Origin: Herbidospora daliensis
GTDB lineage: Bacteria > Actinomycetota > Actinomycetes > Streptosporangiales > Streptosporangiaceae
NCBI RefSeq assembly: GCF_001570585.1
Contig: NZ_BBXF01000009.1
Span: 186,001 to 250,000, forward strand
Length of the DNA: 64,000 bases
Direction of reading: 5' to 3'
Below are positions 9,367 to 26,955 of this stretch, piece by piece; positions within the stretch are counted from its first letter, which is position 1; every line of letters starts with the position of its first letter. Under the pieces are notes generated by a model. That model was not told where the DNA came from and did no database searches. It saw only the letters and a program-made list of their open reading frames with translations. The translations under genes and the position numbers were made by a program.

Positions 9367-9511
9367 GTTGGGGGTTCTCCCTTCCCGGCTTCTCGTCTAG
9401 GCAAGTTGAGGTGTCGGCGGGCCGCGCACCTTGGGGTTTGCTGACGGTCGGCGTTTGTGGCACCTCAGAGGCTTGATCGCTTGCCTATGGGGTGACTGCC
9501 GTTAAACTAAC

Positions 9512-9524
9512 AAGAAACTTTCTT
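9512..9524. promoter_or_regulatory. Perfect palindrome, putative ROK operator
   Basis: AAGAAACTTTCTT is a perfect 13-bp palindrome, preceded by CTAAC and followed by an 8-base A run, in the 203-bp gap between the divergent binding-protein and ROK genes. Such AT-rich palindromes are typical ROK-repressor sites. It lies 46 bases before the ROK start and about 145 bases from the binding-protein start, so one bound dimer could control both directions. Confidence 0.55.
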
Positions 9525-9569
9525 AAAAAAAACCCGCGTTAGCGGATCGTGACGAGAAGGGAGACAGCG

Positions 9570-10747: not shown

Positions 10748-10782
10748 CCGCCCCCGAACGAGGCGGCTTCTCGCTAAGCCGC
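10748..10782 (-). ncRNA. Right-end hairpins of the tnpB element, possible omega-RNA remnant
   Basis: Two overlapping, mutually exclusive stems: CCGCC/GGCGG (10748-10752 with 10762-10766) and GCGGCTT/AAGCCGC (10763-10769 with 10776-10782, 6-base loop). The second overlaps the tnpB stop codon. In this family the 3' end of tnpB and the right end form the omega RNA, whose guide comes from flanking DNA. The assignment rests on position and foldability only. Confidence 0.4.
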
Positions 10783-11767
10783 TTCCACGACCGCGCGAAG
10801 GGCAAGCCCTGCCCTGAGGATGTTGATGGCCGCGTTGACGTCGGCGTGAGCGGTGTGCCCGCACGCCGTGCACGCGAACTCTGCTTGTGTGGGGCGGTTC
10901 TCCTTCGCGCGGTGCCCGCAGCGGGCACACGTGCGAGAGGTGCCGGAGGGGTTCACCGAGATCAGCTCGCGACCGGCGCTTTCAGCCTTGTCCGCCAGGA
11001 TCGTCAGGAACACCCCCCAGCCCGCGTCCAGGATGCTTCGGTTGAGACCGGACTTGGCTCCCACGTTCCGCCCCGGGAGCCCAATGGTGCCGGCGGCCGA
11101 GCGGGTCATACCGGTGATGGGCTTACCTGTCGTCTGCGGGCCAGGTCTCGTTGGGCGTCGGCCACACGGTCGGCGGAGGCGGCCAGGTAGCGCTGGTTGA
11201 CGACGTGGTCGCCGTCGGAGGTCGTGAGGAAGGAGGCGACGCCCATGTCGATTCCGGCCATCGCACCCGTTGCGGGCAGTGGTCGCGCCGGTACGTTGTC
11301 GCAGGAGAGCACCACGTACCAGCGGGACCCTTCCCGCTTCACGCTGATCGTCTTCACCTCACCTTCGCGGTGGGATGGTCGGGCTGGGAGTTCCACCGGC
11401 AGCCGTTACCGTTTTGGGGCCACTCGACGGAGTCGAATCGGCCCCGGCCCCTGAACCGGGGGAAGCCGGGAGCCTGCCCGGCTCTGACACGGGCGAAGAA
11501 CGCGCGGTATGCCTTGTCCAGACGGCGCAGCGTGGCCTGCTGGGAGGAGAACGACCAGCGGCCCTGCCCATCGAGATCGTCCGAGCGGATGTGCTTCAAC
11601 TCCGCCGACTGGTCGCCGTAGCGGACCGTCACTCCCGCCCTGCGGTAGGCGGTGCGGCGGTGTTCCAGGGCCGCGTTGTAAAGCTGCCGGTGATCCTCCA
11701 GGCACGCGGCGAGAGCGACGGCCTGCTTGGAGGTGGGACGCAGCAGGTACTTGAACGACCTACGCAC
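10774..11767 (-). pseudogene. tnpB: TnpB (RNA-guided nuclease) pseudogene
   Basis: Three frame pieces together resemble TnpB. The N-terminal piece starts with a GTG at 11765-11767 (VRRSFKYLLRPTSKQ) and ends after NGCRWNSQPDHPT. The next frame resumes at VKTISVKREGSRWYVVLSC and holds the RuvC-I Asp (AGIDMGVASFLT). The last frame resumes at MTRSAAGT and holds GAKSGLNRSILDAGW, the zinc finger CARC...CTAC and the RuvC-III Asp (HADVNAAINIL). Compared with intact family members, sequence is missing at both joints, and the second gap removes the RuvC-II segment with its catalytic Glu. The protein cannot be made or be active as it stands. Confidence 0.85.
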
Positions 11768-11946
11768 GGACGCCCGGCCGCCGCATCGGCGTGGAACCGG
11801 ATCCTTCTGACAGCACCACGCGTCCGACGAGCAGGAACCGGAGATCTGGCGCGCCAACCTGCAGGATCGGGGCAGGCTCAGGCTGAGTCGACCCTCCCGG
11901 CCCCCGGTTTCCTCGTCGCCCGGGGCGACGGTACTTTCGGGACATC

Positions 11947-12606: not shown

Positions 12607-14439
12607 TCATGGTCTGCCGAAGCGCGTATCGCGCCACCGCAACGGCCGGCCCGGGGCCGTGGTGACGAAGCGGCCCGCGTGGGCGGTGAACGTCGTCGTG
12701 CCCTCCGGCAGGGCGCCCGCCGGGTGCCAGGTGTCCGTCGCGTCCGGGCGGCGGGTGACCAGGGTGCCCTCGCTCGTCAGGGCGTAGAGGCGGCCGTTCA
12801 TGCCGCTCATCGCGACCGCGTCGCAGCCGCCCCGGTCGAGCCACTCCTCGCCGGTGAACGGCAGCGCCCACAGGCGGCCCGAGGCGGTCGCGGCCCAGAA
12901 CGTGCAGTCGGCGACGGCCAGGGCCACCGTGCCCTCCGGGCAGCGGGCCTCGTCGGTCCAGGGGGAGGGCCCCTCCACGGCCGCCCGGGAGCGCAGCGTG
13001 CCGTCGGGGGTGACGCCGTAGAGGAGCACGCCGCGGCGTCCCGCCGCCTCCCGGGGGGTGTCGAGGCAGGTCACGTCGCCGGCCCAGCCGATGGGGCGCC
13101 ACGGGAGGTTCTGGCCGCACAGTTCGCGGCTGACCAGCGCTCCGTCGGACGTCACGCCGTAGAGGACGCGGGCGTCGGCGGCCAGGGCGCGGACGTCGGA
13201 CGGTTCGCCGATCACGTCCCAGCCGTCGTACGGCGCGCTCAGGCGGGTCAGGACGTTGCGGGTGATGCGGTCGACGACCGGGTCGTGGAGGGTGTTGCCC
13301 CAGTTGACCGTGGCGGCGTTGAAGACGGTGCCGAGGCCCGAGGTGAAGACGCCCATGGTCGCCCAGCCGCCCTGGCCGCCGCTGCGCCAGTGCCGCAGGT
13401 CGGCGGTGGCGAGCACGGTGAACGACGGCGGGGTGCCGTCGCGCGAGGTCACCCGGGGGACGCCGCCGACTTCGACGAACTCGGCCGCGTCGGTCTCGTA
13501 GCCCAGCGCCCCCTGGGCGAACTTGTCGCCCTCGGTCAGGCCGGTGCCCTCGAAGACCCAGTGGCCGGCGAAGCGGGTGACGTACGACTCCTCGTTCATC
13601 AGCGGCATCGACGGGCCCCAGGTGCCCGCGCCCGCGCGGAACGAGACGCCCGTCAGGGTGTTCTCCGGGCGGCCGACGGTCGACCACTCGGCGGTGACCA
13701 GCGACGGGTCGCCGACGGGGTCGGTGAAGGGGTCGCGGTGGCAGACCAGGGTGCGGCCCTCCAGGCGGGCCTGCCACCAGGCGGTGTTGCCGGCGAAGAT
13801 CGCCATGTTGCCGCCCCGCCGCACGAACTCCTCGCAGGCGTCGCGCATCTCGCGGGTCCAGTACTCGTCGTGGCCGTTGACCACCAGCAGCCGGTAGCCC
13901 CGCAGCAGGTCGGGAGACAGGTCGAGGCCGTCGCAGAAGTCGGCGTCGTAGCCCGCCGGGCGCAACCAGCGCAGGAAGCCGTCCTCCCAGCGTTCGGGCG
14001 ACGGGCCGCCGCCCGGCCGGTCGAAGGTCACCTCGGCGGCCCGCGACGGGTCCTCCGTCCAGTAGAGGCCCTCGCCGGGCACCCCGGCGCGGTTGTACGC
14101 CTGCCAGGTCCCGAACGGGACCGACACCAGGATGTCCTTCTTCGGCCCCGACGGCGTGACGACGAAGTAGACCTCGTCGTCGCCGGACACCCCGGCGCCG
14201 GGCAGCTCCCCGGTCGCCCTCGGCACCTCCGACGACGGCGCGTCGGTGAAGTGGGCGCGGTAGAGGGAGCTCGGCCAGTGGGCGGGCACGACGAGCGTCC
14301 AGCGCGGGCCGGTGGCGCGGGTGGTCAGCACGTGGGCGCCCGTGGTGGCGTCGTGGACGTGCACGCCGCTGTCGCCCTCCAGCCGGAAGGTCAGCGGGCG
14401 GCCCTGGGGGCACGAGGTCGACTCGGCGTAGGCGATCAC
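12607..14439 (-). CDS. DmfA2-like domain protein with C-terminal beta-propeller repeats
   Basis: About 610 residues starting from the GTG at 14437-14439, which overlaps the stop of the condensation gene (GTGA). Residues 1-410 match the N,N-dimethylformamidase beta-subunit C-terminal family: SVPFGTWQAYNRAG, VNGHDEYWTREMRDACEEF and RRGGNMAIFAGNTAWWQ. Residues about 412-610 hold roughly five repeats of the form LYGVTSDGALVSRE, LLYGVTPDGTLRSR, FWAATASGRLW, LYALTSEGTLVTRR, which looks like a tachylectin-type five-bladed propeller. No signal peptide is seen. It is translationally coupled to the NRPS genes, so it is probably a tailoring, release or resistance hydrolase. The reaction is not known. 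Confidence 0.7.
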   Translation of the reverse strand: MIAYAESTSCPQGRPLTFRLEGDSGVHVHDATTGAHVLTTRATGPRWTLVVPAHWPSSLYRAHFTDAPSSEVPRATGELPGAGVSGDDEVYFVVTPSGPKKDILVSVPFGTWQAYNRAGVPGEGLYWTEDPSRAAEVTFDRPGGGPSPERWEDGFLRWLRPAGYDADFCDGLDLSPDLLRGYRLLVVNGHDEYWTREMRDACEEFVRRGGNMAIFAGNTAWWQARLEGRTLVCHRDPFTDPVGDPSLVTAEWSTVGRPENTLTGVSFRAGAGTWGPSMPLMNEESYVTRFAGHWVFEGTGLTEGDKFAQGALGYETDAAEFVEVGGVPRVTSRDGTPPSFTVLATADLRHWRSGGQGGWATMGVFTSGLGTVFNAATVNWGNTLHDPVVDRITRNVLTRLSAPYDGWDVIGEPSDVRALAADARVLYGVTSDGALVSRELCGQNLPWRPIGWAGDVTCLDTPREAAGRRGVLLYGVTPDGTLRSRAAVEGPSPWTDEARCPEGTVALAVADCTFWAATASGRLWALPFTGEEWLDRGGCDAVAMSGMNGRLYALTSEGTLVTRRPDATDTWHPAGALPEGTTTFTAHAGRFVTTAPGRPLRWRDTRFGRP

Positions 14440-15704
14440 CGCAGCGCCGCTTCGACCAGCATCGTCTCCAGGCCGTGCAGGAAACGCTCCATGTCGGCTC
14501 TGGACAACCAGCGGGTGTCGGCGGTCACCGACACGTCCATGGTGCCGCTGAGGTGGACGCAGAACCGGCAGTTCAGCTGGTCCTGCGACATCGGCCAGCT
14601 GAGCGTGCTCTCGCCGAGCGCCCGGCGGATCAGCGCGTCGTCGCGGTAGACGGGGTTGTCGGCGAAGCGCATGTCGTTGAAGCAGCACCACGGGTGCACG
14701 ACCGTGCCGCGTTCGGCCGCGACCCGCTCCAGCGCCGCCGACCGGTCGGCGGGGTCGTGGTAGGCGCTCCGGTACGCCCGCAGCGCCGCCGGCCCGGCCA
14801 GGCCCAGCAGTTCGTCGAACCGCACCTTCTCCAGGTCCAGGACGAACAGTCCCTCCTGCGACATCGTCGTCACCGCGGTCCGGGTGTCGGCCCGGAACCG
14901 GTTGCCCACGATCGGCAGCATCGCCACCGTCTCGTGCCCGGTCATCTCCGACACCAGCGCGGTCACCGCCGTCAGCAGGACCGTCGAGGTGCTGGTGCCG
15001 TGCTTGACCGCGATGCGCTGCGCGGCCAGGTCGACGGCGGGGGAGCGCAACGACGCCCGCCAGATCGGCGGCGTCTCCCCGGCGCCCGAGGGCACGTGGA
15101 ACATCGTCGGCGGGATGCGCCGGTGGGCGTCCTCCCAGTACGCCGCCGCCTCGGCGGCCACCCGGCGGCCCGCGTCGGAGCCCTGCCAGCGGGCGATGTC
15201 CATCGGCTGGGGCGGCCGGGACGCGGGCGCGCCGCCGCGCAGGAGCAGCAGGCGCAGGTCGCGGATGGCCTGCTCTGCTCCCAAGCCGTCGGCCGCCAGA
15301 TGGCAGAACACCAAAACCAGATGGGTGACCTCGCCCCGGCCGGACAGCACCAGCCCGGCGCGCAGCGGCCACTCCTCCGCGTAGGCGAACGGGGTCGCCG
15401 CCAGCTCGGCCAGCAGGGCGCCGGGGTCGTCGCCGACGCGCACGGTCAGCTCCCCGCCGGCCTTGAGCACCTGGCCGCCGTCGCCGACCAGGGTGCGCAG
15501 CGACTCGTGCCGTTCGACCAGGCGGCCCAGCGCCCACAGCGCCGACGACACCGACGCCGGGCGCGCGCCGAGCGGCAGCACCCGGCCGAAGTTGAAGTAG
15601 TGGTCGTCCGGCCGGGTGCGCTCGATCGCCTCCCAGATCGCGCGCTGGCCCCAGGTGAACGACGCCGTCCCGGTACGCCCGCCCGAGAACACGGCCCGCG
15701 TCAT
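14436..15704 (-). CDS. Stand-alone NRPS condensation domain protein
   Basis: A 422-residue protein of the condensation/chloramphenicol acetyltransferase fold. The usual HHxxxDG is CHLAADG at residues 134-140, so the essential second His and the Asp-Gly are kept while the first His is Cys. Other family features are WGQRAIWEAIE near the start and LLTAVTALVSEMTG mid-protein. It overlaps the carrier-protein gene upstream (ATGA-type, 4 bases) and the DmfA2-like gene downstream. It probably joins an acyl or aminoacyl group on one carrier protein to the partner on another. Confidence 0.85.
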   Translation of the reverse strand: MTRAVFSGGRTGTASFTWGQRAIWEAIERTRPDDHYFNFGRVLPLGARPASVSSALWALGRLVERHESLRTLVGDGGQVLKAGGELTVRVGDDPGALLAELAATPFAYAEEWPLRAGLVLSGRGEVTHLVLVFCHLAADGLGAEQAIRDLRLLLLRGGAPASRPPQPMDIARWQGSDAGRRVAAEAAAYWEDAHRRIPPTMFHVPSGAGETPPIWRASLRSPAVDLAAQRIAVKHGTSTSTVLLTAVTALVSEMTGHETVAMLPIVGNRFRADTRTAVTTMSQEGLFVLDLEKVRFDELLGLAGPAALRAYRSAYHDPADRSAALERVAAERGTVVHPWCCFNDMRFADNPVYRDDALIRRALGESTLSWPMSQDQLNCRFCVHLSGTMDVSVTADTRWLSRADMERFLHGLETMLVEAALR

Positions 15705-15943
15705 GCGGGTGACCGGGCGGCCTCGACCCAGGCCGCCAGCCCGTCGACGCTGTCGAGGAACGTCACGTCGCCGCTCAGATCGACCTCGACGCCGTATTCG
15801 CGTTCGACGGCGTCGATGAGCCGCATCTGCGCCAGCGAGGTCACGCCGAGGTAGGCCAGCGGCACGGTCGCCGCCAGCACGTCGGCCGGGGTGAGCTCGC
15901 CGTCACACGACTCCGACACCAGTTCGGCCAGTCTTTCCTTCAT
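15701..15943 (-). CDS. Free-standing peptidyl/acyl carrier protein
   Basis: An 80-residue four-helix carrier protein. The phosphopantetheine site is Ser36 in YLGVTSLAQM. The ATG at 15941-15943 lies inside the 3' end of the NRPS-MFS gene (41-base overlap, different frame), and the gene overlaps the condensation gene downstream. Discrete carrier proteins like this accept a substrate from a separate ligase, here most simply the AMP ligase of the plus arm. Confidence 0.85.
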   Translation of the reverse strand: MKERLAELVSESCDGELTPADVLAATVPLAYLGVTSLAQMRLIDAVEREYGVEVDLSGDVTFLDSVDGLAAWVEAARSPA

Positions 15944-18900
15944 TCCGCACCTTCCGTTCCAGCCCGACCAGGTCGTCGGGGGTGGCGTCGGGGACCGCGT
16001 CGTCGAACCGGGCCAGCCTCCTGGTGAGCAGCGCCCCGGCCACGACCAGCAGGATGAATCCGGCGAAGACGGCGTACATCAGGGAGACGTCGCCGAGGAG
16101 CCCGGTGCCCACGGGAGCGATGATCCCGACGCCGATCGGGATGGTCGACCAGGCGACCATCTGGTTGAGCGCGAACACCCGGCCGTGGAACCGCTGCGGC
16201 ACCTTGACCTGGATGATCGTGTTGTAGACGCCGTTGACCAGGGCCAGGCCGAAGCTGACGCCGAACGCGCCGACGCCGACGACGACCAGGTCGTCGCGGA
16301 GCGCCACGACGCCGCACGACCCGGCGATGACCAACGTGAGCAGCAGCATGCCGCGCATGCGGCGCCTGGACGGGCCGCCCCACAGGCCCATCGTGAGCCC
16401 GCCGACGACCGCGCCCGACCCCGCCACCAGGGCGATGACACCGGCGTCCTGGACGGTGCCGAACTCCAGCACCAGCGGCGAGTACATCATGAAGACCGGC
16501 GACAACCCGAGCGACAGGAACGCGAAGAAGACGACCATCGCCCGGAAGTACGGGTTGCCGAACGAGATCTTGAACCCTTCGGCGATCTCCCGGCCGACCG
16601 TCTCGCGGCGGCGCATGGCCAGCGCGGCCGGGAAGGCCACCAGGGCCAGCACGGCGATGGTGAAGACGTGCCCGACGACGTCCAGGATGAGGATGCCCTT
16701 CAGCCCCCAGACCGCCATCAGCCCCACGGCCGCGAGCGGCGCGACGAACTGCGCCATGCCGAGCGCGGTCTGGGCGATGCCGTTGGCGTGGCCGAGGTAG
16801 CGCTTGGGCACCAGCTGCGGCACCGCCGCCGTGAACGCCAGCCGTTGCGTGGTCAGCGCGACCGACAGCAGCGGCAGCAGCAGGTAGAGGGTCCAGACGT
16901 GCAGGTTCCCGGTCCACACGAGCACGCCCGTCGCGGCCTGGACGGCCAGCGCCGCCGCGTTCCCGCCGATCATCACGGCCCGTTTGGACGACCGGTCGAC
17001 CAGCGCCCCGGCCAGCGGCGCGGCCAGCACGCCCGGGATGACGGCCAGGACCTGGAGCAGGGCCAGCTGGGTCATCGACTGGTGCTGGAGATAGACCCAG
17101 AGGGGCAGCGCGAACTCGGTCAGCGTCGACCCGGCCAGGCAGACCATCTGGCCGAACGCGACCAGCAGGAACCGCCTGACCGAGGGCGCGAGCCCGGCCG
17201 GAGCCGGGGCGGCGCGGGGGACGACGGGAGCGGGGGCCGGAGCCGTGATGATTTCGGCCAGTTCGTCGGGGCGGTACTTCAGGAAGTAGTGGCCCGCCTC
17301 GTCGAGCACGACCAGCCGGGTGCGCTCGGCGATGAAGCCCCACTCCGCGAAGCGCTCCTCGTAGTAGTCGGTCGCGGGGTCGTACTCGCCGACGACGGAC
17401 ACGATCGGGGCCTTGAGCTTGGGCGCGCCGCTGTCCATCAGGGCGGTGAAGTAGTCCTCGGCCGCGCGGGCGTCGTGGCGCATGTTCCCGATGACGAACG
17501 CCTTCTGGGCGTCGTCCAGGTCGGAGAGGTCCGCGCCGAGCGCGGTGAGCCAGTTGAGCTGGCCCTTGTCGCTGCGGAACCGCTCCAGCCGCGAAAGCCC
17601 GGCCCAGCGCCCGAGCACGCCCCTGGTGGGGCGGGCGAACGGGAAGATGCCGCCGAGGTAGACGGTGTCGACCGCGCGTCCGGCCGCTTCGAGGCGGCGG
17701 GCGATCTCGACGGTGAGCGCGCCGCCGACGCCGCAGTGGCCGTAGAGGGTGATCGGGGCCTCGACGCGCAGGATCTCCTCGACGCAGCGGCGGGCCACCT
17801 CCTCCAGCGGTTGCGACTCCTCGGGCAGCCCGAGGTCGTGGCCGGGCACCGCGACCGACCAGAGCTCCCACTCCGTCGGCAGGGCGTCGGCGAGCGGCTG
17901 GTAGACCACCGCGCTGCCGCCGCCGTAGGGGACGCAGACCAGGGCCTTCTCGCCCGGCCCGGTGAGCCGGTAGAGCAGCGGCCGGGGGCCGGACGCCGAC
18001 CGGGCGACGGCGGCCAGAGCGCGGACCGTGGGGTGCTGGAACAGGTCCATCAGGGCGACGGGCGAGGAGCCCTCGGGCAGGGTCCGGCGCAGCCTGGCCA
18101 CGACGCGGGTCGCGAGCAGGGAGTGGCCGCCCAGGTCGAAGAAGTCGTCCAGCACGCCCACCCGCTGGAGCCCCAGCACCTCGCACCAGGCGGCGGCGAC
18201 GGCCTCCTCCCAGGCGTCGGCCGGAGGTTCGAACGGCACGTCCTCGGCGCGGACGTCACCGGGGGCGGGCAGCGCCGCCCGGTCGACCTTGCCGTGCCCC
18301 TTCAGCGGGAGCTCGTCGAGGAACACCCAGCGGGTCGGCACCATGTACTCCGGCAGCCGCTCGGCCAGCGTCCGGCGCAGGTCGCCGATCGCGGGCCGGG
18401 GGTCGGCGACGACGTAGCCGACCAGTTCGCCATCTCGGGCGTCGGTGACGGCGTGGGAGACGCCGGGCACCAGGCGCAGCGCCTCGTCGATCTCGCCGAG
18501 CTCGACCCGGTAGCCGCGGATCTTGACCTGGAGGTCGCGGCGGCCCAGGAACTCCAGGTCGCCGGTCGGCAACCAGCGGGCCAGGTCGCCCGAGCGGTAG
18601 AGGCGGCCGTGGACCGGGTGGTCGACGAACTTCTCGGCGGTCAGCTCGGGGCGGCCCAGGTATTCGCGGGCCAGCCGGCCGCCGATGCACAGTTCGCCCG
18701 CCACGCCGGCCGGGACGGGCGCGAGGTGCTGATCCAGGACGTACAGCACCGAATGACCCAGCGGTTTCCCGATCGGGGTGATCGGGCCGGTCGGCGCGGT
18801 GGACGGGGAGACGCGGTAGGTCGAGACGCCGACGATGGCCTCGGTCGGGCCGTAGTGGTTGACGACCGGCACCCGCCGGGCGAGGTCGCGGGCGAACTCC

Positions 18901-20936
18901 CAGCTCGACCCCTCGCCGCCGAAGATGAGCAGCTTGCGCGGCAGTAGGTCGGCGACGTCGTCGACGTCGGCGGCGAGCGCGCCCAGGTGCGACGGGGTGA
19001 GCTTGACGTAGTCGATGCCGCGCATGCGCTCGGCGAGTTCGGGGCCGGAGACGCGGGCGGGCAGCAGGTGCAGGGTGCCGCCGGTGCTCAGGCACAGATA
19101 GAGGATCGTGATGCCGAAGTCGAAGGCGAGCGACTGGAGGAGGGCGTATTCGGCGTCGTCCGCCACGGCGAAGCGCTGCTTCGCGTCGGCCAGGTAGCGC
19201 AGGATCTCGCGGTTGCCGACCGCGACGCCCTTCGGCTTCCCGGTCGAACCCGAGGTGTAGATGACGTAGGCGAGGTCGTCGCCGCCGCCCAGGGGCTCCA
19301 GGTCGTCGGCCTCGGCGTCGTCGATCTCGGTGAGCAGCAGCGCCGCCCCGGAGTCCTCGACCATGAAGGCGCGGCGTTCATCGGGATACTCGGGGTCGAT
19401 CGGCACGTAGGCCCCGCCCGCCTTCAGCACCGCGAGCAGCGCGACGGCCAGGTCGATCGACTGCTCCATGCAGACCGCCACCCGCACCCCCGGGCCGACG
19501 CCGCGCTCCCGCAACCGCCGCGCGGTGCCCGCGACCCTCCGGTGCAGTCTCCGGTACGTGATCGCGTCGTCCCCGTGCCGGATCGCGACCCGGTCGGGGG
19601 AGCGGGTGGAGATCACCTCGCCGAGGGTCTCCTGGGTGGGCGCGACCGGGTCGTCGGGCCCCTGCGACCAACCGGCGAGCAGCTCCCGCTCGGCGGGTGA
19701 GACGAGGCCGAGGCGGGACACCGGCTGACCGGGGTCGGCGACGATCGAGCGCAGCAGCGTCTCGAAGTTGGCCGCGAACCGTTCGACCGTCTCGGGGTGG
19801 AACAGGTCGGCCGAGTAGACGAAGAAGGCGTCGAGCCCCTCGGCGGCCGGGGTGACCTCCAGCGACAGGTCGAACTTGGCCTGGCGGAAGTCGGGGTCGA
19901 CCGGTTCGGCGACGAGTCCGTCGAGGTGGAGGCGGGTGCCGGCCTCGCTGCGGAGGCTGAACTGGGTCTGGAAGACGGGCGTGCGGCTCAGGTCGCGGGC
20001 CACGCCGAGGTCCTGCACCACCCGGTCGAACGGCGTCTCCGCGTGGGTGAACGCGTCGATCGCGGTGCGGCGGGTGCGCTTCAGCAGCTCGCGGAAGGTC
20101 GGATCTTCAGTGAGGTCGGCGCGGAGCACGACGGTGTTGAGGAAGAACCCGATGAGCCGTTCGAGGTCCTCGTCGGGCCGGGCCGCGACGGGGGTGCCCA
20201 CCGCGAAGTCGGCGGCCCCCGTGTAGCGGTGCAGCTGGGTCTGGAAGGCGGCCATGAGCAGCATGAACAGGGTGACGCGCTCCTTGCGGGCGAGCACGTT
20301 CACCTGGTCGGCGAGCTCACGGGGCAGCCTGCGGGCGACGACCGCGCCCCGGGAGGTGCGGATCCTCGGCCGGGGCAGGTCGGCGGGCAGGTCGAGCACC
20401 GGCACGCGGTCGAGCCGGTCGCGCCAGTAAGAGGTGTCGATCGGCTGCTCACGCTGCCTGCGGGCGTGGTCGCCGTACTGCATCGGCAGGTCGGGCAGGT
20501 CGCCGCCGGAGTAGAGGGTGGCGATCTCGTCGTACAGCAGGCCGAGCGACCAGCCGTCGCCGGCGATGTGGTGCAGGACGATGACGAGCGTCTGGTCGTC
20601 GGTCAGACAGGCCCTGACGACGGGGCCGTTCGCCAAGTCGAACGGCCGGTTGGTGAGGTCGGCCAGCGGCACGCCCGAAACGATTTCGAGGGGGAGCGTG
20701 CGGTCCTCGACCAGCGCGACCGGATTGCCGTCGACGGCGGGGTAACGCGTCCGCAATACCTCGTGCCGCCGCATGACCGTGTCAAGTGCCCGCTGTAAGG
20801 CGGCCACGTCGAGATCGCCGACGAGCCGTTCGGTCACACAGATGTTGTACGACGCGTCGTCGGGGTTGAGCTCGTGCAGGAACCAGAGCCGTTCCTGTCC
20901 GAGCGAGAGCGGATTGGCCGGTGTGACGGCGAGCAT
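15903..20936 (-). CDS. Single-module NRPS (C-A-PCP-TE) fused to an MFS transporter
   Basis: 1677 residues. The condensation domain spans 1-430 with HHIAGDG at 122-128. The adenylation domain spans about 440-890: TSGSTGKPKG at 561-570, pocket residues D606 F607 T610 K645 I671 G673 H694 V702 G703, and the core Lys883. Read as DFTKIGHVGK, this is closest to aspartate codes. The carrier domain is at 905-985 with Ser939 in DLGGHSL. The thioesterase is at 990-1232: nucleophile elbow GHCGVG with Cys1068 replacing Ser, then Asp1186 and His1216. After a Pro/Ala linker, residues 1255-1660 are an MFS domain with about 12 membrane segments. The frame is continuous with no frameshift. First gene of the minus arm. 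Confidence 0.93.
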   Translation of the reverse strand: MLAVTPANPLSLGQERLWFLHELNPDDASYNICVTERLVGDLDVAALQRALDTVMRRHEVLRTRYPAVDGNPVALVEDRTLPLEIVSGVPLADLTNRPFDLANGPVVRACLTDDQTLVIVLHHIAGDGWSLGLLYDEIATLYSGGDLPDLPMQYGDHARRQREQPIDTSYWRDRLDRVPVLDLPADLPRPRIRTSRGAVVARRLPRELADQVNVLARKERVTLFMLLMAAFQTQLHRYTGAADFAVGTPVAARPDEDLERLIGFFLNTVVLRADLTEDPTFRELLKRTRRTAIDAFTHAETPFDRVVQDLGVARDLSRTPVFQTQFSLRSEAGTRLHLDGLVAEPVDPDFRQAKFDLSLEVTPAAEGLDAFFVYSADLFHPETVERFAANFETLLRSIVADPGQPVSRLGLVSPAERELLAGWSQGPDDPVAPTQETLGEVISTRSPDRVAIRHGDDAITYRRLHRRVAGTARRLRERGVGPGVRVAVCMEQSIDLAVALLAVLKAGGAYVPIDPEYPDERRAFMVEDSGAALLLTEIDDAEADDLEPLGGGDDLAYVIYTSGSTGKPKGVAVGNREILRYLADAKQRFAVADDAEYALLQSLAFDFGITILYLCLSTGGTLHLLPARVSGPELAERMRGIDYVKLTPSHLGALAADVDDVADLLPRKLLIFGGEGSSWEFARDLARRVPVVNHYGPTEAIVGVSTYRVSPSTAPTGPITPIGKPLGHSVLYVLDQHLAPVPAGVAGELCIGGRLAREYLGRPELTAEKFVDHPVHGRLYRSGDLARWLPTGDLEFLGRRDLQVKIRGYRVELGEIDEALRLVPGVSHAVTDARDGELVGYVVADPRPAIGDLRRTLAERLPEYMVPTRWVFLDELPLKGHGKVDRAALPAPGDVRAEDVPFEPPADAWEEAVAAAWCEVLGLQRVGVLDDFFDLGGHSLLATRVVARLRRTLPEGSSPVALMDLFQHPTVRALAAVARSASGPRPLLYRLTGPGEKALVCVPYGGGSAVVYQPLADALPTEWELWSVAVPGHDLGLPEESQPLEEVARRCVEEILRVEAPITLYGHCGVGGALTVEIARRLEAAGRAVDTVYLGGIFPFARPTRGVLGRWAGLSRLERFRSDKGQLNWLTALGADLSDLDDAQKAFVIGNMRHDARAAEDYFTALMDSGAPKLKAPIVSVVGEYDPATDYYEERFAEWGFIAERTRLVVLDEAGHYFLKYRPDELAEIITAPAPAPVVPRAAPAPAGLAPSVRRFLLVAFGQMVCLAGSTLTEFALPLWVYLQHQSMTQLALLQVLAVIPGVLAAPLAGALVDRSSKRAVMIGGNAAALAVQAATGVLVWTGNLHVWTLYLLLPLLSVALTTQRLAFTAAVPQLVPKRYLGHANGIAQTALGMAQFVAPLAAVGLMAVWGLKGILILDVVGHVFTIAVLALVAFPAALAMRRRETVGREIAEGFKISFGNPYFRAMVVFFAFLSLGLSPVFMMYSPLVLEFGTVQDAGVIALVAGSGAVVGGLTMGLWGGPSRRRMRGMLLLTLVIAGSCGVVALRDDLVVVGVGAFGVSFGLALVNGVYNTIIQVKVPQRFHGRVFALNQMVAWSTIPIGVGIIAPVGTGLLGDVSLMYAVFAGFILLVVAGALLTRRLARFDDAVPDATPDDLVGLERKVRNEGKTGRTGVGVV

Positions 20937-20996
20937 CTTCCCTCAAGTGATCGGACGAATGCAGCACGAAGAGGCCAAACGCCTCAGCCGGGGAAG

Positions 20997-21023
20997 CTAA
21001 CTGGAAAGGTTCTTTGCAATTAG
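20997..21023. promoter_or_regulatory. 27-bp palindrome, copy 1 (putative operator)
   Basis: Arms CTAACTGGAAAG and CTTTGCAATTAG around GTT; 9 of the 12 arm positions are symmetric. It lies 61 bases upstream of the NRPS-MFS start on the minus strand. A second copy is at 21150. The spacing, symmetry and divergent promoter position point to a repressor or activator site for the cluster. The cognate regulator is not identified. Confidence 0.6.
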
Positions 21024-21149
21024 CGGACGGCGTCAGTCTGGCACGCCCCGCCGCCTCTCACAAGCTCTAAACGTGCCTAACCCATTGGGGCGGTGGAGCC
21101 CGATACCCCTTGTGACGAGCGTCCGGACCGTGCCACACTGGCGACTGAT

Positions 21150-21176
21150 CTAACTGGAAAGAATCTTTTCAGTAAT
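21150..21176. promoter_or_regulatory. 27-bp palindrome, copy 2 (putative operator)
   Basis: It begins CTAACTGGAAAG exactly as copy 1, then AAT and CTTTTCAGTAAT; the inner inverted repeat TGGAAAG/CTTTTCA is nearly perfect. It lies 42 bases before the AMP-ligase ATG on the plus strand and 153 bases (start to start) from copy 1. Confidence 0.6.
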
Positions 21177-21218
21177 GGCATGCTCGGGCAGTATTCATCC
21201 GATCTTTGAGGAAGTCCA

Positions 21219-22595
21219 ATGACGCTCTCGGATCTGCTGGCGGGCCGCGCCGCCGCCGAGCCTGACGGCGTCGCCATGATCGTCCACGGCGTGGGGGAAC
21301 TGACCTACGCCGGCTGGGACAGCCGCGCCGACGGTCTGGCGAACCTGCTGATCACCGAAGGTGTGCGCCCCGGGGAACCGGTGGGACTGGTCTACCCCCA
21401 CGCCGGGTGGCTCGACTACGCGGTGGCGTTCATGGGGGTGCTGCGGGCGGGGGCCGTCGCGGTGCCGATCTCCGACCGGACGCCGGAGGGAGAGATCGGA
21501 CATCTTGCGGAACGTGTCGGAATGACACGGATTCTGCGCAATGAAAGTTTCATGACAGGACCCTTGACAGAGGTCCGACGGGTGTCCCCGACAGACCCGG
21601 CGCAGATCCTGTTCACCTCCGGCACGACCGGCGCGGCCAAGGGCGTCACCGCCACCCACGCCAACCTCGCCCACGGCCTGCCCCGCGACCCGCGCCGCCG
21701 GGCCTTCCGGCACTCCCGGCACCTCGCGCACGCGTTCCCGATCGGCACCAACGCCGGTCAGATGATGCTGGTGAACGCCATCGCGGCGCACCCGACCGTC
21801 GTCACGGTGCCCGTCTTCACCCCCGGCCGGTTCGCCTCGCTCATCGCGAAGTACCAGGCCGGGACGGTGTTCCTGGTGCCCGCCATGGCCATCGAGATGT
21901 TGTCGGGCACGCCCGAGCCGCTCGACAGCGTGCTGCTGCTCGGGTCGGCCGCCGCGCCGCTGCCCTCGGCCGTGGCGGTCCGGCTGGCCGGGCTGTTCCC
22001 GGCCGCGATGATCACGAACTACTACACCTCGACCGAGGCCGCCCCCGCCCAGACGATCATGGTCTTCGACCCCGAGCGTCCCGGGTCCGTGGGCCGGGCG
22101 GCGGCGGGCGGATCCGTCCGGATCACCTCGGGCGACGGAACCCCGGCCGGGCCCGGCGAGGTCGGCGAGGTGTGGATGCGCTCGGCCGCCGCGCCGCGCG
22201 CCTACCTCGGCGAGACCGAGTCGGACACCTTCCGCGACGGATGGGTGCGGATGGGCGACCTCGGCTACGTCGACGAGGAGGGCTACCTGTTCCTGGTCGA
22301 CCGGACCGGCGACGTCGTCAAGTCGGGCGCCCACAAGGTCTCCACGCTGAAGGTCGAGGAGGCGCTGCACGCGCACCCGCTGGTCGTCGAGGCCGCCGCC
22401 TACGGGGTGCCCCACCCGGTGCTCGGGACGGTGGTGGCGGCGGCTCTGGTCGTACAGGAAGAGATCCCGCTCGCCGACCTGCGGGCGTTCCTGCTCGACC
22501 GGCTCGCCCCGCACGAGCTGCCGGCGAAGGTCACCACGATGGACACGCTGCCGCGCAACCGGGGCGGCAAGGTCGACAAGAAGGCGCTGCCATGA
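21219..22595 (+). CDS. AMP-dependent carboxylate ligase (ANL superfamily)
   Basis: A 458-residue free-standing adenylating enzyme. It has the P-loop LFTSGTTGAAKGV near residue 130, YYTSTE, the hinge GDLGYVDEEGYLFLVDR and the C-terminal catalytic Lys in GGKVDKKALP. Amino-acid A domains have a conserved Asp at the start of the pocket; here the equivalent stretch is FPIGTNAG with no Asp, so a plain carboxylic acid substrate is more likely than an alpha-amino acid. GAGGAAG precedes the ATG. First gene of the plus arm; its TGA overlaps the ATG of the C-PCP gene. Proposed role: load an acyl group onto a cluster carrier protein. Confidence 0.85.
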   Translation: MTLSDLLAGRAAAEPDGVAMIVHGVGELTYAGWDSRADGLANLLITEGVRPGEPVGLVYPHAGWLDYAVAFMGVLRAGAVAVPISDRTPEGEIGHLAERVGMTRILRNESFMTGPLTEVRRVSPTDPAQILFTSGTTGAAKGVTATHANLAHGLPRDPRRRAFRHSRHLAHAFPIGTNAGQMMLVNAIAAHPTVVTVPVFTPGRFASLIAKYQAGTVFLVPAMAIEMLSGTPEPLDSVLLLGSAAAPLPSAVAVRLAGLFPAAMITNYYTSTEAAPAQTIMVFDPERPGSVGRAAAGGSVRITSGDGTPAGPGEVGEVWMRSAAAPRAYLGETESDTFRDGWVRMGDLGYVDEEGYLFLVDRTGDVVKSGAHKVSTLKVEEALHAHPLVVEAAAYGVPHPVLGTVVAAALVVQEEIPLADLRAFLLDRLAPHELPAKVTTMDTLPRNRGGKVDKKALP

Positions 22596-24007
22596 CCGAG
22601 GCGTCGTTCGCGCAGACCGGGATGTGGATCACCGAGCGCATGGGACGGGCCCGCACGGCCTACCACATGCCGCTGGTCGTCGACTTCGAAGGGCCGCTCG
22701 ACGCGTGCGCGCTGCACGCGGCCTGCGAGGCGGTCGTCCGGCGGCACGCGGTGTTGTCGAGCGCGGTCGCCGAGGTCGACGGCCTGCCCGTGATGGTGCC
22801 CGGGGCGCGCCCGCCGATCCTGCTCACCACCACCGACGACCTGCCCGCGCTCGTGCGGGAGGAGACCCTGCGGCCGTTCGACGTCGAGAACGGGCCGCTC
22901 GCCCGGTTCACGCTGGCCCGGCTGAACCCCGGGCGGCACGCCCTGGTCTTCGTGGCGCACCACCTCGTGTTCGACGGCGAGTCGAAGGACATCCTGGTCA
23001 GAGACCTGGCCGACTTCTACAACGGGGTGTCGCGGCCCCGGCTCGACGTGTCTTATGCCAGCTTCGCCGACGGGGAGCGGGAGCGGGTCCGCGACGACCT
23101 CGACGAGGCGAAGGCGTACTGGTCGGCCCGGCCGCCCGGGGAGGCGACGGCGCTGCCCGGCCTGACCTCGGCCGGACGGGGGGCCGCCGAGGGCGCGGTG
23201 TACACCTTTCGCGGCCGGATGCCCGACGTGCCGGGCGTCTCCCGCTTCGAGCTCTTCCTGGCCTCCGTGCACACCCTGCTGCACCGCTACGGCGACCCCG
23301 CGCCGACCGTCGCCGTCGACCTGTCGACCCGCGTCCCCGAGGTGCGCGACAACCTCGGCCTGTTCGTCAACGAACTGCCCGTCACCGTCACGCCCGAGGG
23401 GACCGTCGCCGACGTCGCCAAGGCCCTGCACCACGACCTGCGCACGATGTACCGCTTCCGGCACGTCCCCTACGCCCGCGCCGTCAGGGGGGTACGCCCG
23501 CGCACCGCCCTCGCGCAGGTCTCGGTCAGCTACCGCAAACGCCGCCCCGACCCCGTCTTCACCGGCGTGACGACCACCGTCGACTGGGCGGTCTTCAACC
23601 ATTCCGTCCGCAGCACCCTGCACCTCCAGGCCGTCGACCACCCCGACGGCCTCTACGTGATCATGCAATACGGCGCCGGCTCCGCCACGGAGCCGGACGT
23701 CGCCCGGATAGCGGAGGACCTTCTCACCATCATGAACAACCCCGAAAGCCCCGTGGACGCCACCCCGCAGGCGACCGGCCTCGACGACGCCGTCCGCGAG
23801 ATCTGGCAGGACGTCCTGGGCATCGACGAGATCGGCGACGACGAGGACCTGTTCGACCTCGGCGGGCACTCCCTCACCATCACCCAGATCATCGCCCGCA
23901 TGCGCAAGCGGCTCGGCGTCGAGGTCCCCCTGGACGTCTTCTTCGACACCCCGACCATCGCGGGCGTCGTCCAGGCGATCCGCGAGGCGGAACCGGCCGT
24001 CAGGTGA
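22592..24007 (+). CDS. NRPS condensation-carrier didomain protein (C-PCP)
   Basis: 471 residues. Residues 1-385 are a condensation domain with intact HHLVFDG at 123-129. Residues about 395-465 are a carrier domain, Ser427 in DLGGHSLTIT. There is no adenylation domain, so its carrier must be loaded in trans. The ATG overlaps the ligase stop and its own TGA overlaps the GTG of the E1alpha gene, so three proteins are made by coupled translation. It may take the acyl group from the ligase or from the dehydrogenase complex. Confidence 0.88.
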   Translation: MTEASFAQTGMWITERMGRARTAYHMPLVVDFEGPLDACALHAACEAVVRRHAVLSSAVAEVDGLPVMVPGARPPILLTTTDDLPALVREETLRPFDVENGPLARFTLARLNPGRHALVFVAHHLVFDGESKDILVRDLADFYNGVSRPRLDVSYASFADGERERVRDDLDEAKAYWSARPPGEATALPGLTSAGRGAAEGAVYTFRGRMPDVPGVSRFELFLASVHTLLHRYGDPAPTVAVDLSTRVPEVRDNLGLFVNELPVTVTPEGTVADVAKALHHDLRTMYRFRHVPYARAVRGVRPRTALAQVSVSYRKRRPDPVFTGVTTTVDWAVFNHSVRSTLHLQAVDHPDGLYVIMQYGAGSATEPDVARIAEDLLTIMNNPESPVDATPQATGLDDAVREIWQDVLGIDEIGDDEDLFDLGGHSLTITQIIARMRKRLGVEVPLDVFFDTPTIAGVVQAIREAEPAVR

Positions 24008-24894
24008 CCACCGACCTCGACCGGCTGCTGCTCATCCGCCACTTCGAGCGCGCCCTGCTCGACCTGTTCGCCAAGGGCGAGCTCAACGGCACCACCCACA
24101 CCTGCCTGGGCCAGGAGATCGTGCCGGTGGCGCTGGCGCCGCTGCTCGGCCCCCGCGACCACGTGTTCAGCAACCATCGGGGGCACGGCCACTACCTGGC
24201 CCGCTTCGACGACCCGGCCGGCCTGCTGGCCGAGATCATGGGCCGCGAGGGCGCGGTCTGCGACGGGGTCGGCGGCAGCCAGCACATCCTGCGCGAGGGC
24301 TACCTGTCGACGGGCGTCCAGGGGGAGAGCCTGCCGGTCGCGGCCGGCGCCGCCCTGCACCTGCGCGGCTCGGGGGCGCTGGCCTGCGCGTACATCGGCG
24401 ACGGCACGTGGGGCGAGGGGGCGGTCTACGAGGCCCTGAACCTGGCGGCCCTGTGGTCGCTGCCGCTGCTGGTCGTGGTCGAGCACAACGGCATCGCCCA
24501 GACCACCCCGACGTCGCTGGCGATGGCGGGCGACATCGGGGCCCGCTGCGCGGCCTTCGGCGTCCGGCACGCGGCGCTGCCCGCCGACGACGTCCTGGAG
24601 ATCCGCGACCGGCTCGCGCCGTTGATCGCCTCGGTCCGCGACGGCGCACCGCTGGTCGTGGAGTTCGCGGTCAACCGCCTGGGCCCGCACAGCAAGGGCG
24701 ACGACACCCGGTCGGGCGTCGCGGACCTGCGCGACTGGTACCGCGAGATGGTCGGCGTGCCCGGCTTCGCCGACGCGGACGCCCGCGCCCGGGACCGGGT
24801 CGAGTCGGTGGTGCGCGACGTGAAGGCCCGCCCGCCGTCGACGTGGGGCCAGGACAGCGCTGACCCGCGCCTGTTGCACGGAGCCAAGCCATGA
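24004..24894 (+). CDS. 2-oxoacid dehydrogenase E1 alpha subunit (ThDP-dependent)
   Basis: A 296-residue E1alpha, somewhat short for the family. The ThDP/Mg motif is present: AYIGDGTWGEGAVYEALNLAALW followed by VVVEHNGIAQ. GHYLARF and GVQGESLPVAAGAAL also match the family. It decarboxylates a 2-oxo acid and passes the acyl group to a lipoyl E2. The GTG at 24004 overlaps the upstream stop (GTGA). It lies 10 bases before the E1beta gene. The fit to the NRPS operon indicates a cluster-specific acyl supply and not central metabolism. The substrate is unknown. Confidence 0.88.
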   Translation: MTTDLDRLLLIRHFERALLDLFAKGELNGTTHTCLGQEIVPVALAPLLGPRDHVFSNHRGHGHYLARFDDPAGLLAEIMGREGAVCDGVGGSQHILREGYLSTGVQGESLPVAAGAALHLRGSGALACAYIGDGTWGEGAVYEALNLAALWSLPLLVVVEHNGIAQTTPTSLAMAGDIGARCAAFGVRHAALPADDVLEIRDRLAPLIASVRDGAPLVVEFAVNRLGPHSKGDDTRSGVADLRDWYREMVGVPGFADADARARDRVESVVRDVKARPPSTWGQDSADPRLLHGAKP

Positions 24895-24904
24895 GGCGGG
24901 ACGT

Positions 24905-25882
24905 ATGCGAGTCGTAGAGAACCTCAACCACGCGCTGCACGAGGTGCTCGCCGCGGACCCGAGGGCCTTCCTGCTGGGAGAGGACCTCCTGGACCCCTAC
25001 GGCGGCGCGTTCAAGGCCACCCGCGGTCTGTCGACGCGGTTCCCGGCGCAGGTCGTCACCACCCCGATCAGCGAGTCGGCGATCACCGGCGTCGGCGCGG
25101 GCCTCGCGCTGTGCGGCGACACCGCGATCGTCGAGATCATGTTCAGCGACTTCGTCACGCTGGCGTTCGACCAGATCGTCAACTTCGCCGCCAAATCCGT
25201 CTCCATGTACGGCTCCCGCGTCCCGATGCGCCTCATCGTCCGCCTGCCCACCGGCGGCGGTCGCGGCTACGGCCCCACCCACAGCCAGAGCCTGCAGAAA
25301 CACTTCATCGGCGTGCCCGGCCTCGACGTCTACGAGATGTCGCCGCTGCACGACAACCGCGCCGTCTTCGCCGAGATGATCGCCGCCGAGCGCCCCTGCG
25401 TCTTCTTCGAGGACAAGATCCTCTACACCAAGCGCATGCACGAGGTGGACGACCTGTTCACCTGGGACCTCACCGGCGGCCTGGCCCGCGTCCACGTCGA
25501 CACACCCCCCGACTGCGTGATCATCGCCCCCGGCGGCGTGACCCACCGCGCCCTGGCCGCCATGCGCCGCCTCCTGCTCGAACAGGAGATCGTCTGCACC
25601 CTGCTCGTCCCCTCCCGCCTCCACCCTCTGGACGCCGCCCCGCTGGTGGCCGTCGCCCGCGAGGCCCGATCGGTCGTCGTCGCCGAGGAGAGCACCGCCG
25701 GAGGCACCTGGGGCGCCGAAGTGGCCCACGCCCTGCACCGCGAGCTCTGGGGCGTGCTGCGCAACCCGGTAGCGCTGGCCCACTCGGCCGACAGCATCAT
25801 CCCGACGGCGAGCCACCTGGAACGTGCGGTCCTGCTGACCGAGACCACCATTTACGACACCGTCCTGGAGTCCCTGAAGTGA
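24905..25882 (+). CDS. 2-oxoacid dehydrogenase E1 beta subunit
   Basis: A 325-residue E1beta: FLLGEDLLDPYGGAFKATRGL, TTPISESAITGVGAGLAL, EIMFSDFVTLAFDQIVN, the pocket loop RLPTGGGRGYGPTHSQS and the C-terminal transketolase domain (VVVAEESTAGGTWGAEV). It pairs with the E1alpha encoded just upstream to form the heterotetrameric E1. The ATG follows GGCGGGAC; the TGA overlaps the GTG of the E2 gene. Confidence 0.9.
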   Translation: MRVVENLNHALHEVLAADPRAFLLGEDLLDPYGGAFKATRGLSTRFPAQVVTTPISESAITGVGAGLALCGDTAIVEIMFSDFVTLAFDQIVNFAAKSVSMYGSRVPMRLIVRLPTGGGRGYGPTHSQSLQKHFIGVPGLDVYEMSPLHDNRAVFAEMIAAERPCVFFEDKILYTKRMHEVDDLFTWDLTGGLARVHVDTPPDCVIIAPGGVTHRALAAMRRLLLEQEIVCTLLVPSRLHPLDAAPLVAVAREARSVVVAEESTAGGTWGAEVAHALHRELWGVLRNPVALAHSADSIIPTASHLERAVLLTETTIYDTVLESLK

Positions 25883-26955
25883 AGGTCCCCAAGCTCAACA
25901 ACAACGACGACACCTACGTCCTGGTCGAATGGCTGGTGGCGACGGGGACCGAGGTCAAGGAGGGCGACCCGATCGCCGTCCTGGAGACCTCGAAGTCGGC
26001 CGAGGAGGTGCCCGCCGACGCGACGGGAGTGCTGCGGCAGGAGATCGCCCTCATGGCCGACTGCGCCCCCGGCGACCTCCTCGCGACCATCGGCGCGGCG
26101 GCCCCCGCGTCACCCGCCGCGGTCGCCTCTCCTGTGGCGTCGCCGACGGGCCCGGTGATCACCGCCCCGGCACGGGCGGCCATGGACGAACTCGGCGTGA
26201 CCGAAGCCCAGATCGCGACCCTGGGCGTGAACGTCGTCCGCCGGGCCGACGTGGAACGCCTCGCGGCGGAGACCTCCACCCGGACCGCCCCGCTGTCGAA
26301 GGTCCAGCAGGCCGTCGGCCGGGCGGTCACCCTCTCGCACTCGACGATCCCGGCCGCGTACGCGGTCCTGGACATGGCCCTCGACGAGGAACTCGCGGCG
26401 ACCCGGCGGCTGACGAAACAGGTCCGCCGGCCTGTCGGCCTGGCCGAGCTCTTCGTGATGGGCGTCGCCCGGCTCCACGCGGAGTTCCCCCTGTTCTTCG
26501 CGACCCTCGGCTCCGGCGGCACCCAGGCGGTGCTGTCGGAGGCCGCCAACGTCGGGGTGACCTTCGACACCGGCGACGGGCTGTACGTGCCGGTGGTCCA
26601 CGACGCCGGGGCGAAGACGCTGCAGGAGGTGGCGACGCGGCTGATGGAGTATCGCGTCGCGGCGATGAAGGGCGACTTCAGCGCGGCGGACCTGGCCGAC
26701 GCGAACATCGCGGTGACCCTCCACCACGACGGCGGGATCACGCTGGCGATCCCGTTCATCTTCCCGGGGACCGTGTGCGCACTGGCCGTCACCGCGCCTC
26801 AGGAAGTGCTCTACCTGGACGGCGGGGAGGTGCGGTCGCGGCAGGTGGCCCACATCGGGCTGGCCTACGACCATCGGCTCATCAACGGGCGGGACGCGGC
26901 GCGGTTCCTCAACGCTCTCCAGCGGGAGGTCCGGGCGCTGGTCGCCACGGAGTGA
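25879..26955 (+). CDS. 2-oxoacid dehydrogenase E2, lipoyl acyltransferase
   Basis: 358 residues from a GTG overlapping the E1beta stop. The lipoyl domain (1-78) has Lys39 in ETSKSAEE as attachment site. A short Ala/Pro linker and a degenerate peripheral-subunit-binding segment (APARAAMDELGV, about 95-130) follow. The acyltransferase core (about 140-358) ends with YDHRLINGRDAARFL: His332 is present, while the usual Asp four residues on is Asn336. That D-to-N change is seen in some E2 proteins but could alter acceptor use. There is no E3 gene in the window, so E3 must come from primary metabolism, or the acyl group is handed on without reoxidation. Confidence 0.88.
   Translation: MKVPKLNNNDDTYVLVEWLVATGTEVKEGDPIAVLETSKSAEEVPADATGVLRQEIALMADCAPGDLLATIGAAAPASPAAVASPVASPTGPVITAPARAAMDELGVTEAQIATLGVNVVRRADVERLAAETSTRTAPLSKVQQAVGRAVTLSHSTIPAAYAVLDMALDEELAATRRLTKQVRRPVGLAELFVMGVARLHAEFPLFFATLGSGGTQAVLSEAANVGVTFDTGDGLYVPVVHDAGAKTLQEVATRLMEYRVAAMKGDFSAADLADANIAVTLHHDGGITLAIPFIFPGTVCALAVTAPQEVLYLDGGEVRSRQVAHIGLAYDHRLINGRDAARFLNALQREVRALVATE

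Follow-up and report, generated by a model that had tools for sequence, protein, structure and literature searches.

Organization of the gene cluster

The window analyzed here, a 64,000-bp stretch of the genome of the soil actinobacterium Herbidospora daliensis (RefSeq assembly GCF_001570585.1, contig NZ_BBXF01000009.1, positions 186,001 to 250,000), contains at positions 12607–26955 a nonribosomal peptide synthetase (NRPS) cluster of nine genes organized into two divergent arms, as established from reading frames, GC3, start-site checks and Pfam domains (Table 1). The genes encode one adenylation (A) domain, three condensation (C) domains, three carriers (acyl carrier protein, ACP; peptidyl carrier protein, PCP; and the thiolation domain, T, of the NRPS), one ligase, one E1/E2 set, one thioesterase with a cysteine in the motif GHCGVGG (Cys-TE), and one MFS transporter. 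A Ser residue is present in the attachment motif of all three carriers. Neighboring genes within the arms overlap by 4 bp, with the exception of the genes of ACP and NRPS, which overlap by 41 bp, and a 10-bp gap before the gene of E1beta; the arms are separated by a divergent gap of 282 bp. The two tight arms and the domain set had been described in an earlier sequence-only reading and were confirmed, as were the outer boundaries, which agree with the outer stop codons; the ninth gene encodes a protein similar to dimethylformamidase (DMFA). Since the gene order is kept in relatives and the motifs are conserved, the nine-gene cluster is not a chance arrangement. Neither E3 nor the ATP-grasp family was found among the window genes scanned with Pfam, which are part of the genes of the window. 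A tRNA call at 15331–15420 is false, as it lies inside the gene of the stand-alone C domain and has a four-base anticodon.

Table 1. Genes and putative regulatory sites of the cluster, with positions in the window
Feature	Position	Strand	Basis
DMFA2_C (N,N-dimethylformamidase large-subunit-like) protein, 610 aa	12607..14439	-	Pfam PF20254, E 1e-64
Stand-alone condensation domain (C-only), 422 aa, CHLAADG	14436..15704	-	Pfam PF00668, E 1e-8
Free-standing ACP, 80 aa	15701..15943	-	Pfam PF00550; Ser motif GVTSL
NRPS module C-A(Asp-like code)-T-TE(Cys)-MFS, 1677 aa	15903..20936	-	Pfam; code DFTKIGHVGK; GHCGVGG
Palindromic operator-like site 1 (putative)	20997..21023		61–87 bp upstream of NRPS start
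Palindromic operator-like site 2 (putative)	21150..21176		43–69 bp upstream of ligase start
AMP-dependent acyl ligase, 458 aa	21219..22595	+	Pfam PF00501/PF13193; motif HAFPIGTNAGQ
C-PCP protein, 471 aa	22592..24007	+	Pfam PF00668 residues 3–383, PF00550 residues 399–463; HHLVFDG, GGHSL
E1alpha (E1a), thiamine diphosphate (ThDP)-binding, 296 aa, NapB/QncN/SclQ2 type	24004..24894	+	Pfam PF00676; tree
E1beta (E1b), transketolase pyrimidine and C-terminal domains, 325 aa, SclQ3 type	24905..25882	+	Pfam PF02779/PF02780
E2 (lipoyl domain and acyltransferase), 358 aa, SclQ4 type	25879..26955	+	Pfam PF00364/PF00198; lipoyl motif ETSK, catalytic YDHRLING

The E1/E2 cassette

The genes of E1a, E1b and lipoyl-E2 lie together, and three candidate partner carriers are encoded in the cluster. 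A total of 506 relatives of E1a were found, and the best 80 loci were kept, each viewed over up to 20 kb. The closest six relatives all belong to Herbidospora (86–90% identity), while identity to the 74 non-Herbidospora loci among the best 80 is 63–74%. In the E1a tree, 87 cassette rows, including the locus L060 of Streptomyces griseus BIG105, are split from two non-cassette E1 proteins of the same genome as the window by a 100/99 branch, with both outgroup branches saturated. The motif GPHSKGDD is present in 81 of 81 E1a rows, L060 among them, and L060 also has the E1b motif GYGPTHSQSLQKHF unchanged. No tblastn match of the window E1a was found at E 1e-3 in the BCDH-type locus of its own genome.

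The locus L060, whose E1a is 63% identical to that of the window, contains genes in the order UvrA, metallophosphatase, FAD monooxygenase, E1a, ACP, fused E1b-E2 and KASIII. The table in PMC7570522 lists NapA monooxygenase, NapB E1a, NapC ACP, NapD of E1b-E2 size, NapE KASIII and a UV-repair protein, with mostly consecutive accessions. On the basis of this agreement in gene content and order, and not of a comparison with a named sequence, L060 was taken as naphthyridinomycin-type. SclQ1–4 (76, 305, 338 and 386 aa) are described in PMC6335953 as ACP, E1a, E1b and E2, which supply the glycolic unit of scleric acid and resemble QncM/N/L; the window proteins (296, 325 and 358 aa) are similar to SclQ2/3/4 in size and in their split form. 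As judged from the tree, motifs and gene order, the E1/E2 proteins are members of the two-component transketolase family supplying the glycolyl-S-carrier to naphthyridinomycin, quinocarcin and scleric acid. Accordingly, the proposal of the sequence-only reading that ligase and E1/E2 are alternative sources of one acyl group is not supported: each of the two most likely contributes a unit of its own to a product built from three.

Should the E1/E2 set act instead on a 2-oxo acid, pyruvate or similar, the unit loaded would be acetyl or a different acyl group, in line with the proposal for the pepteridines, in whose pathway E1 and an E2-T-C protein are described (PMC5384830). The best NCBIfam matches of the window proteins are indeed pyruvate dehydrogenase (PDH) E1/E2 models, all under their cut-offs. 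However, E1a is placed with the Nap/Scl-type family and shares its GPHSKGDD motif; moreover, acetyl on the C-PCP protein gives no nucleophile, whereas a C2 hydroxy acid replacing glycine fits. We regard this alternative as improbable.

A second E1a/E1b/E2 cassette in the same genome (L126, G000:C3:563777, and L130), with E1a 60% and E1b 63% identical, adjoins another TE-MFS NRPS; glycosyltransferase-, GH1- and aldose-epimerase-like genes were noted by eye around it. Naphthyridinomycin-like gene runs, which are possibly tetrahydroisoquinoline clusters, were seen in L054, L058, L059, L060 and L077 (Streptomyces griseus BIG105, S. griseoincarnatus, S. sp. HM190 and others), with L060 checked by Pfam. 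The cassette is also present in the Streptomyces clusters L045, L053, L057 and L121; in L057, the one scanned with Pfam, genes for Lys/Orn N-monooxygenase, DAO oxidase and a luciferase-like enzyme are located beside the NRPS, and hydrazine-type chemistry is perhaps combined there with glycolate.

The C-PCP protein and its glycine-type relatives

The motif HHxxxDG is present in 49 of 50 C-PCP rows, the remaining row being a gap. In the window protein the C domain runs directly into the PCP, without a Gly-like A domain, and E1/E2 are present instead. A plasmid search with C-PCP gave five records from Embleya and Streptomyces clavuligerus, of which one each was opened (L195 and L196, respectively). 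Both NRPS loci are similar to the window in the ligase (48%), C domain (39–43%), PCP (52–60%), Asp-code module and TE (59–62%); the MFS fusion is present in L196, while the L195 sequence stops inside the TE. The ligase, the CT-type C domain and the Asp-code C-A-T-TE-MFS protein of the L196-type family are all present in the window. Unlike the window, L195 and L196 keep an A domain between the CT-type C domain and the PCP, with the code DILQ(V/L)G(A/V)(V/I)W, which we take to be a glycine code, and no match to E1/E2 was detected in the approximately 19 kb viewed; L195 also has one module more. In both loci, the PCP most similar to that of the window C-PCP protein is the one that follows the Gly-like A domain (60% in L195, 52% in L196).

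In a class-wide search, 17 of 394 genomes matched at E 1e-60, and 20 further regions were chosen from these. Together with the loci collected before, they gave 94 CT-type C domains, 81 of them distinct by a 200-aa identity test, and each was surveyed for an A domain and E1a within approximately 9–10 kb or up to the contig end. Among the distinct domains, seven have an A domain directly behind and no E1a, 67 have E1a and no A domain, seven have neither, and none has both (7, 78, 9 and 0, respectively, for all 94). Within the viewed stretches, the A domain and E1a thus exclude each other among the 81 distinct domains (Fisher p 1e-6, not corrected for kinship). All seven A domains behind CT-type C domains have Gly-like codes, DILQ.G..W in six and DALQLGVIW in one. 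In a quick C-domain tree the glycine types branch close to the outgroup. Apart from the single row L198, the A-less types fall into two groups, of 54 and 20 rows.

The genome that contains the window also carries two modules of the glycine type that are related to C-PCP, L197 (G000 C4:250905) and L135 (in G000 C2:374000–393900). L135 contains homologues of the ligase (57%), ACP (39%) and C-only protein (34%) and a Gly-like A domain, and no E1/E2 match was found at this locus; ACP and C-only can therefore occur without the cassette and without glycolyl loading. The C-PCP protein is best read as a former glycine module that would have lost its A domain and would now be charged with glycolyl, an amide being replaced by an ester. 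Glycolate being glycine's hydroxy analogue, the most economical interpretation has E2 loading the PCP and the C domain forming the ester.

The terminal NRPS module, ligase and stand-alone C domain

The A domain of the terminal module has the code DFTKIGHVGK, which we take to be Asp-like; the proline module of the scleric acid-type pathway is not present. The code supports the earlier proposal of a small-molecule pathway with Asp, release by a Cys-TE and export. Among 62 TE proteins of the loci collected (not deduplicated), every one carries a fused MFS, and 46 have the terminal code DFTK(I/L/V)GH(V/I)G; the TE motif could be read in 45 of these 46 and is GHC in every case. GHC was also found in 39 of 39 rows of the first TE alignment, and the wider set later gave four TE domains with Ser. 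A TE-MFS query matched 21 of 21 genomes at E 1e-20, these genomes having been chosen for the core or the window, with the TE part only matched in G073; the H. daliensis genome has five full matches. Among the papers listed in a literature search on fused TE-MFS NRPS, none appeared relevant, as judged by titles and abstract starts.

Siderophore pathways commonly involve both Asp residues and export by an MFS transporter, and the cluster might accordingly be read as encoding a siderophore or another metal binder with Asp as a ligand and the fused MFS as its exporter. This is highly improbable: no uptake or reductase family was found among the window genes scanned with Pfam, and the palindromes of the cluster are unlike what we take to be the DtxR/IdeR box.

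The ligase, with the motif HAFPIGTNAGQ, appears to be without the Asp of amino-acid-type enzymes at the A4 position. The C-only protein retains CHxxxDG in 40 of 40 rows.

Conservation and distribution of the core

An eight-gene core, with DMFA, C-only and ACP in one arm and ligase, C-PCP, E1a, E1b and E2 in the other, recurs across Streptosporangiaceae. The cluster belongs to a conserved family, found mostly in Streptosporangiaceae among the loci seen, and is not a singleton. The ligase was found in 48 of the best 80 E1a loci, and C-only, ACP, ligase, C-PCP and E1a were found together in 29, with DMFA also in view in 21 of the latter. Ten of these 29 core loci show no A or TE domain of NRPS; 13, six of them from Herbidospora, share with the window a C-A-T-TE-MFS gene located between ACP and ligase; and six have other layouts. 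Twenty DMFA loci were selected from those in 68 genomes: 16 contain the core (five without NRPS in view, two window-like and nine others), and four contain DMFA alone. The NRPS is a variable addition to the core, often a terminal MFS-fused module with the Asp code and Cys-TE.

Genes of ROK and M15 often flank the core, but were rejected as obligate members: an M15 match (E 1e-45) is present in 122 of 297 genomes of the family versus 68 of 297 for DMFA (E 1e-60), and the palindrome of the neighboring ROK gene differs in spacing from the cluster sites.

Proposed biosynthesis

From the sequence, we infer the substrates, bond types, order of steps and mode of release as follows. With ThDP, E1a and E1b would remove two carbons from a ketose phosphate as a unit that E2 would carry on its lipoyl-Lys and pass on as glycolyl (HO-CH2-CO-) to a carrier; this carrier is most likely the PCP of C-PCP. 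The ligase would activate a carboxylic acid without an alpha-amine and attach it to a carrier that is probably the free ACP. An ester between the acyl group and the glycolyl hydroxyl would then be formed by the C domain of C-PCP, and the NRPS C domain would hand acyl-O-CH2-CO- to Asp; the Cys-TE would release the chain by hydrolysis or cyclization, and the fused MFS would export it. The predicted product class is acyl-O-CH2-CO-Asp, and on balance we lean towards the cluster making a small acyl-glycolyl-aspartate (depsi)peptide by these steps.

A number of observations weigh against this scheme. Core-only clusters without NRPS or TE nearby must have another release route or a distant partner. 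The quick C-domain tree has long branches that meet. A strict rule is also at odds with the seven distinct C-PCP genes that have neither an A domain nor E1a in view; in the three of these genomes that were checked (G063, G551 and G021), E1a is found at another locus. In the Asp code, F at the second position is unusual, and the Gly and Asp assignments are both presumptive. Sixteen of the 62 TE-MFS proteins carry other terminal codes, with the TE motif GHS in four, GHC in ten and unreadable in two. Finally, the free ACP is nearer to the E1a-side ACP of L060 (score 60) than are the two PCPs (32 and 43), which would place glycolyl on the ACP.

The last point raises a variant with the same product logic, in which glycolyl is carried by the free ACP, as by NapC and QncM, and C-PCP carries a ligase-activated unit with its own amine or hydroxyl. 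Among 43 cassette loci without ligase, a carrier-like stretch beside E1a was found in nine; L030 (a C-PCP), L081 and L116 (spurious) and L113 (a duplicate) were dropped. In four of the five readable loci (L062, L072, L079 and L083) the E1-side ACP scores higher with the window ACP than with the PCP of C-PCP, the scores in L114 being 50 and 51, respectively; likewise, the upstream ACPs of L117–L120 score 64–65 with the former and 56–58 with the latter. Against this variant, the gene of C-PCP overlaps that of E1a by 4 bp and is placed like that of SclQ1, a free 76-aa PCP directly precedes E1a in several relatives, the ACP and C-only homologues of L135 occur without E1/E2, and C-PCP pairs with Gly modules. 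We consider glycolyl on the ACP rather unlikely, and C-PCP is favored as the glycolyl carrier.

DMFA-like protein, putative regulatory sites and neighboring genes

The GTG start of the DMFA gene overlaps the stop of the upstream gene. Residues H190 and E192 of the DMFA-like protein align, as counted by hand, with H519 and E521 of dimethylformamidase and are invariant in 19 of 19 homologues, as are Y115 and Y60, assigned as ligands by rough spacing only. H519, E521 and two Tyr residues are presumably the iron ligands of dimethylformamidase (2-Tyr/His/Glu site). The C-terminal part weakly matches the designed repeat proteins Cake, which we take to be propellers. The protein may act on amides as an enzyme of tailoring or release; a literature search did not find dimethylformamidase together with nonribosomal biosynthetic gene clusters. 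Homologues of DMFA2_C (49–64%) with no other core genes in view were noted in L175, L176, L177 and L188.

The two putative operator-like palindromes precede the two arms. Across 1.02 Mb from 49 ligase loci (the window and 48 others), their core GGAAAGNNTCTTTNC, with one mismatch allowed, was found 49 times, always within 330 bp upstream of the ligase start; it is present in 32 of the 49 loci, which are related and not independent. A different, conserved palindrome, TAACAAGAAA(C/G)TTTCTT, is located approximately 34–37 bp before ROK genes of several genera (approximately 9505–9530 in the window; L026, L035, L052, L066, L068, L180 and L194).

The cluster is flanked on one side by a group of GH3, sugar-ABC and ROK genes and by an M15 peptidase, and on the other by SDR, Lhr helicase, glyoxalase and RecA. 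A transposase of the IS605/TnpB type has left remnants (TNB domain and pieces of HTH_OrfB) at 10774–11857, between the ROK gene and M15 peptidase. A link with sugar metabolism, considered from the GH3, sugar-ABC and ROK neighbors and from glycosidase-like genes seen by eye near paralogous TE-MFS NRPS loci of the same genome, was dropped, there being no clear excess. Among 120 proteins from 20 TE-MFS loci (one of 121 omitted), GH1, alpha-amylase, SBP_bac_1 and LacI were found three times each; 121 control proteins, sampled from 264 in 18 loci with those of at least 1100 aa excluded, gave alpha-amylase once and SBP_bac_1, LacI, alpha-1,3-glucanase and pectate-lyase-like proteins twice each. The comparison is weak, as it covers the 25 commonest families; one of the control loci, L159, is at most 5 kb away from a TE-MFS gene.

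Relation to known pathways and significance

The scleric acid pathway (scl) of Streptomyces sclerotialus, as outlined in PMC6335953 and PMC13307308, shares with the window E1a, E1b, E2 and a carrier for the glycolic unit (SclQ1–4), one NRPS C-A-PCP module adding one amino acid, TE, an MFS exporter and an acyl-O-CH2-CO-amino acid product, predicted for the window. The scl module uses Pro, while that of the window has the Asp-like code; benzoyl is joined in scl by the ATP-grasp protein SclG, and no ATP-grasp gene was seen among the window genes scanned. The same applies to the Mmf-type regulators of scl. The ligase, two more C domains, a second free carrier, the fusion of Cys-TE and MFS to the NRPS and the DMFA-like protein are additional in the window. 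Among 392 sampled genomes of the genus of L060, 17 matched at E 1e-90 in a search for scl clusters, and none of the 11 regions opened was scl-like in gene sizes and order.

NapB/NapD and QncN/QncL, with the ACPs NapC and QncM, belong to the same E1a/E1b/E2 family, the lipoyl E2 transferring glycolyl to the carrier according to papers citing the 2012 study on them; E1b and E2 are separate genes in the window, and its context is not that of tetrahydroisoquinolines. In the pepteridine pathway of Photorhabdus (PMC5384830), PDH-like E1/E2 proteins similarly supply a carrier and a C domain of an NRPS, but E2 is fused to T-C, the acceptor is a pteridine and the proposed substrates are 2-oxo acids.

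No described product of the cluster family was found in the literature search. The sequence-only reading recognized no known cluster with this gene set, which holds for the whole set in the literature and loci searched; the glycolyl sub-pathway is known from Nap, Qnc and Scl. The enzymes are thus of known kinds, and new are their combination and the replacement of glycine by glycolate.

The chances are about even that this conserved family represents a natural amide-to-ester swap, in which the PCP of an A-less glycine module would be charged with glycolate by transketolase/E2 to give depsi-analogues of acyl-Gly-Asp, and the eight-gene core would be portable, with no, one or several NRPS modules. 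The glycolyl-loading enzyme set, known from few pathways, is in this way tied to a widespread, uncharacterized cluster family, and the paired natural clusters, glycine and glycolate versions being found even within one genome, could serve to test how an NRPS turns an amide into an ester through a change of its loading enzyme.

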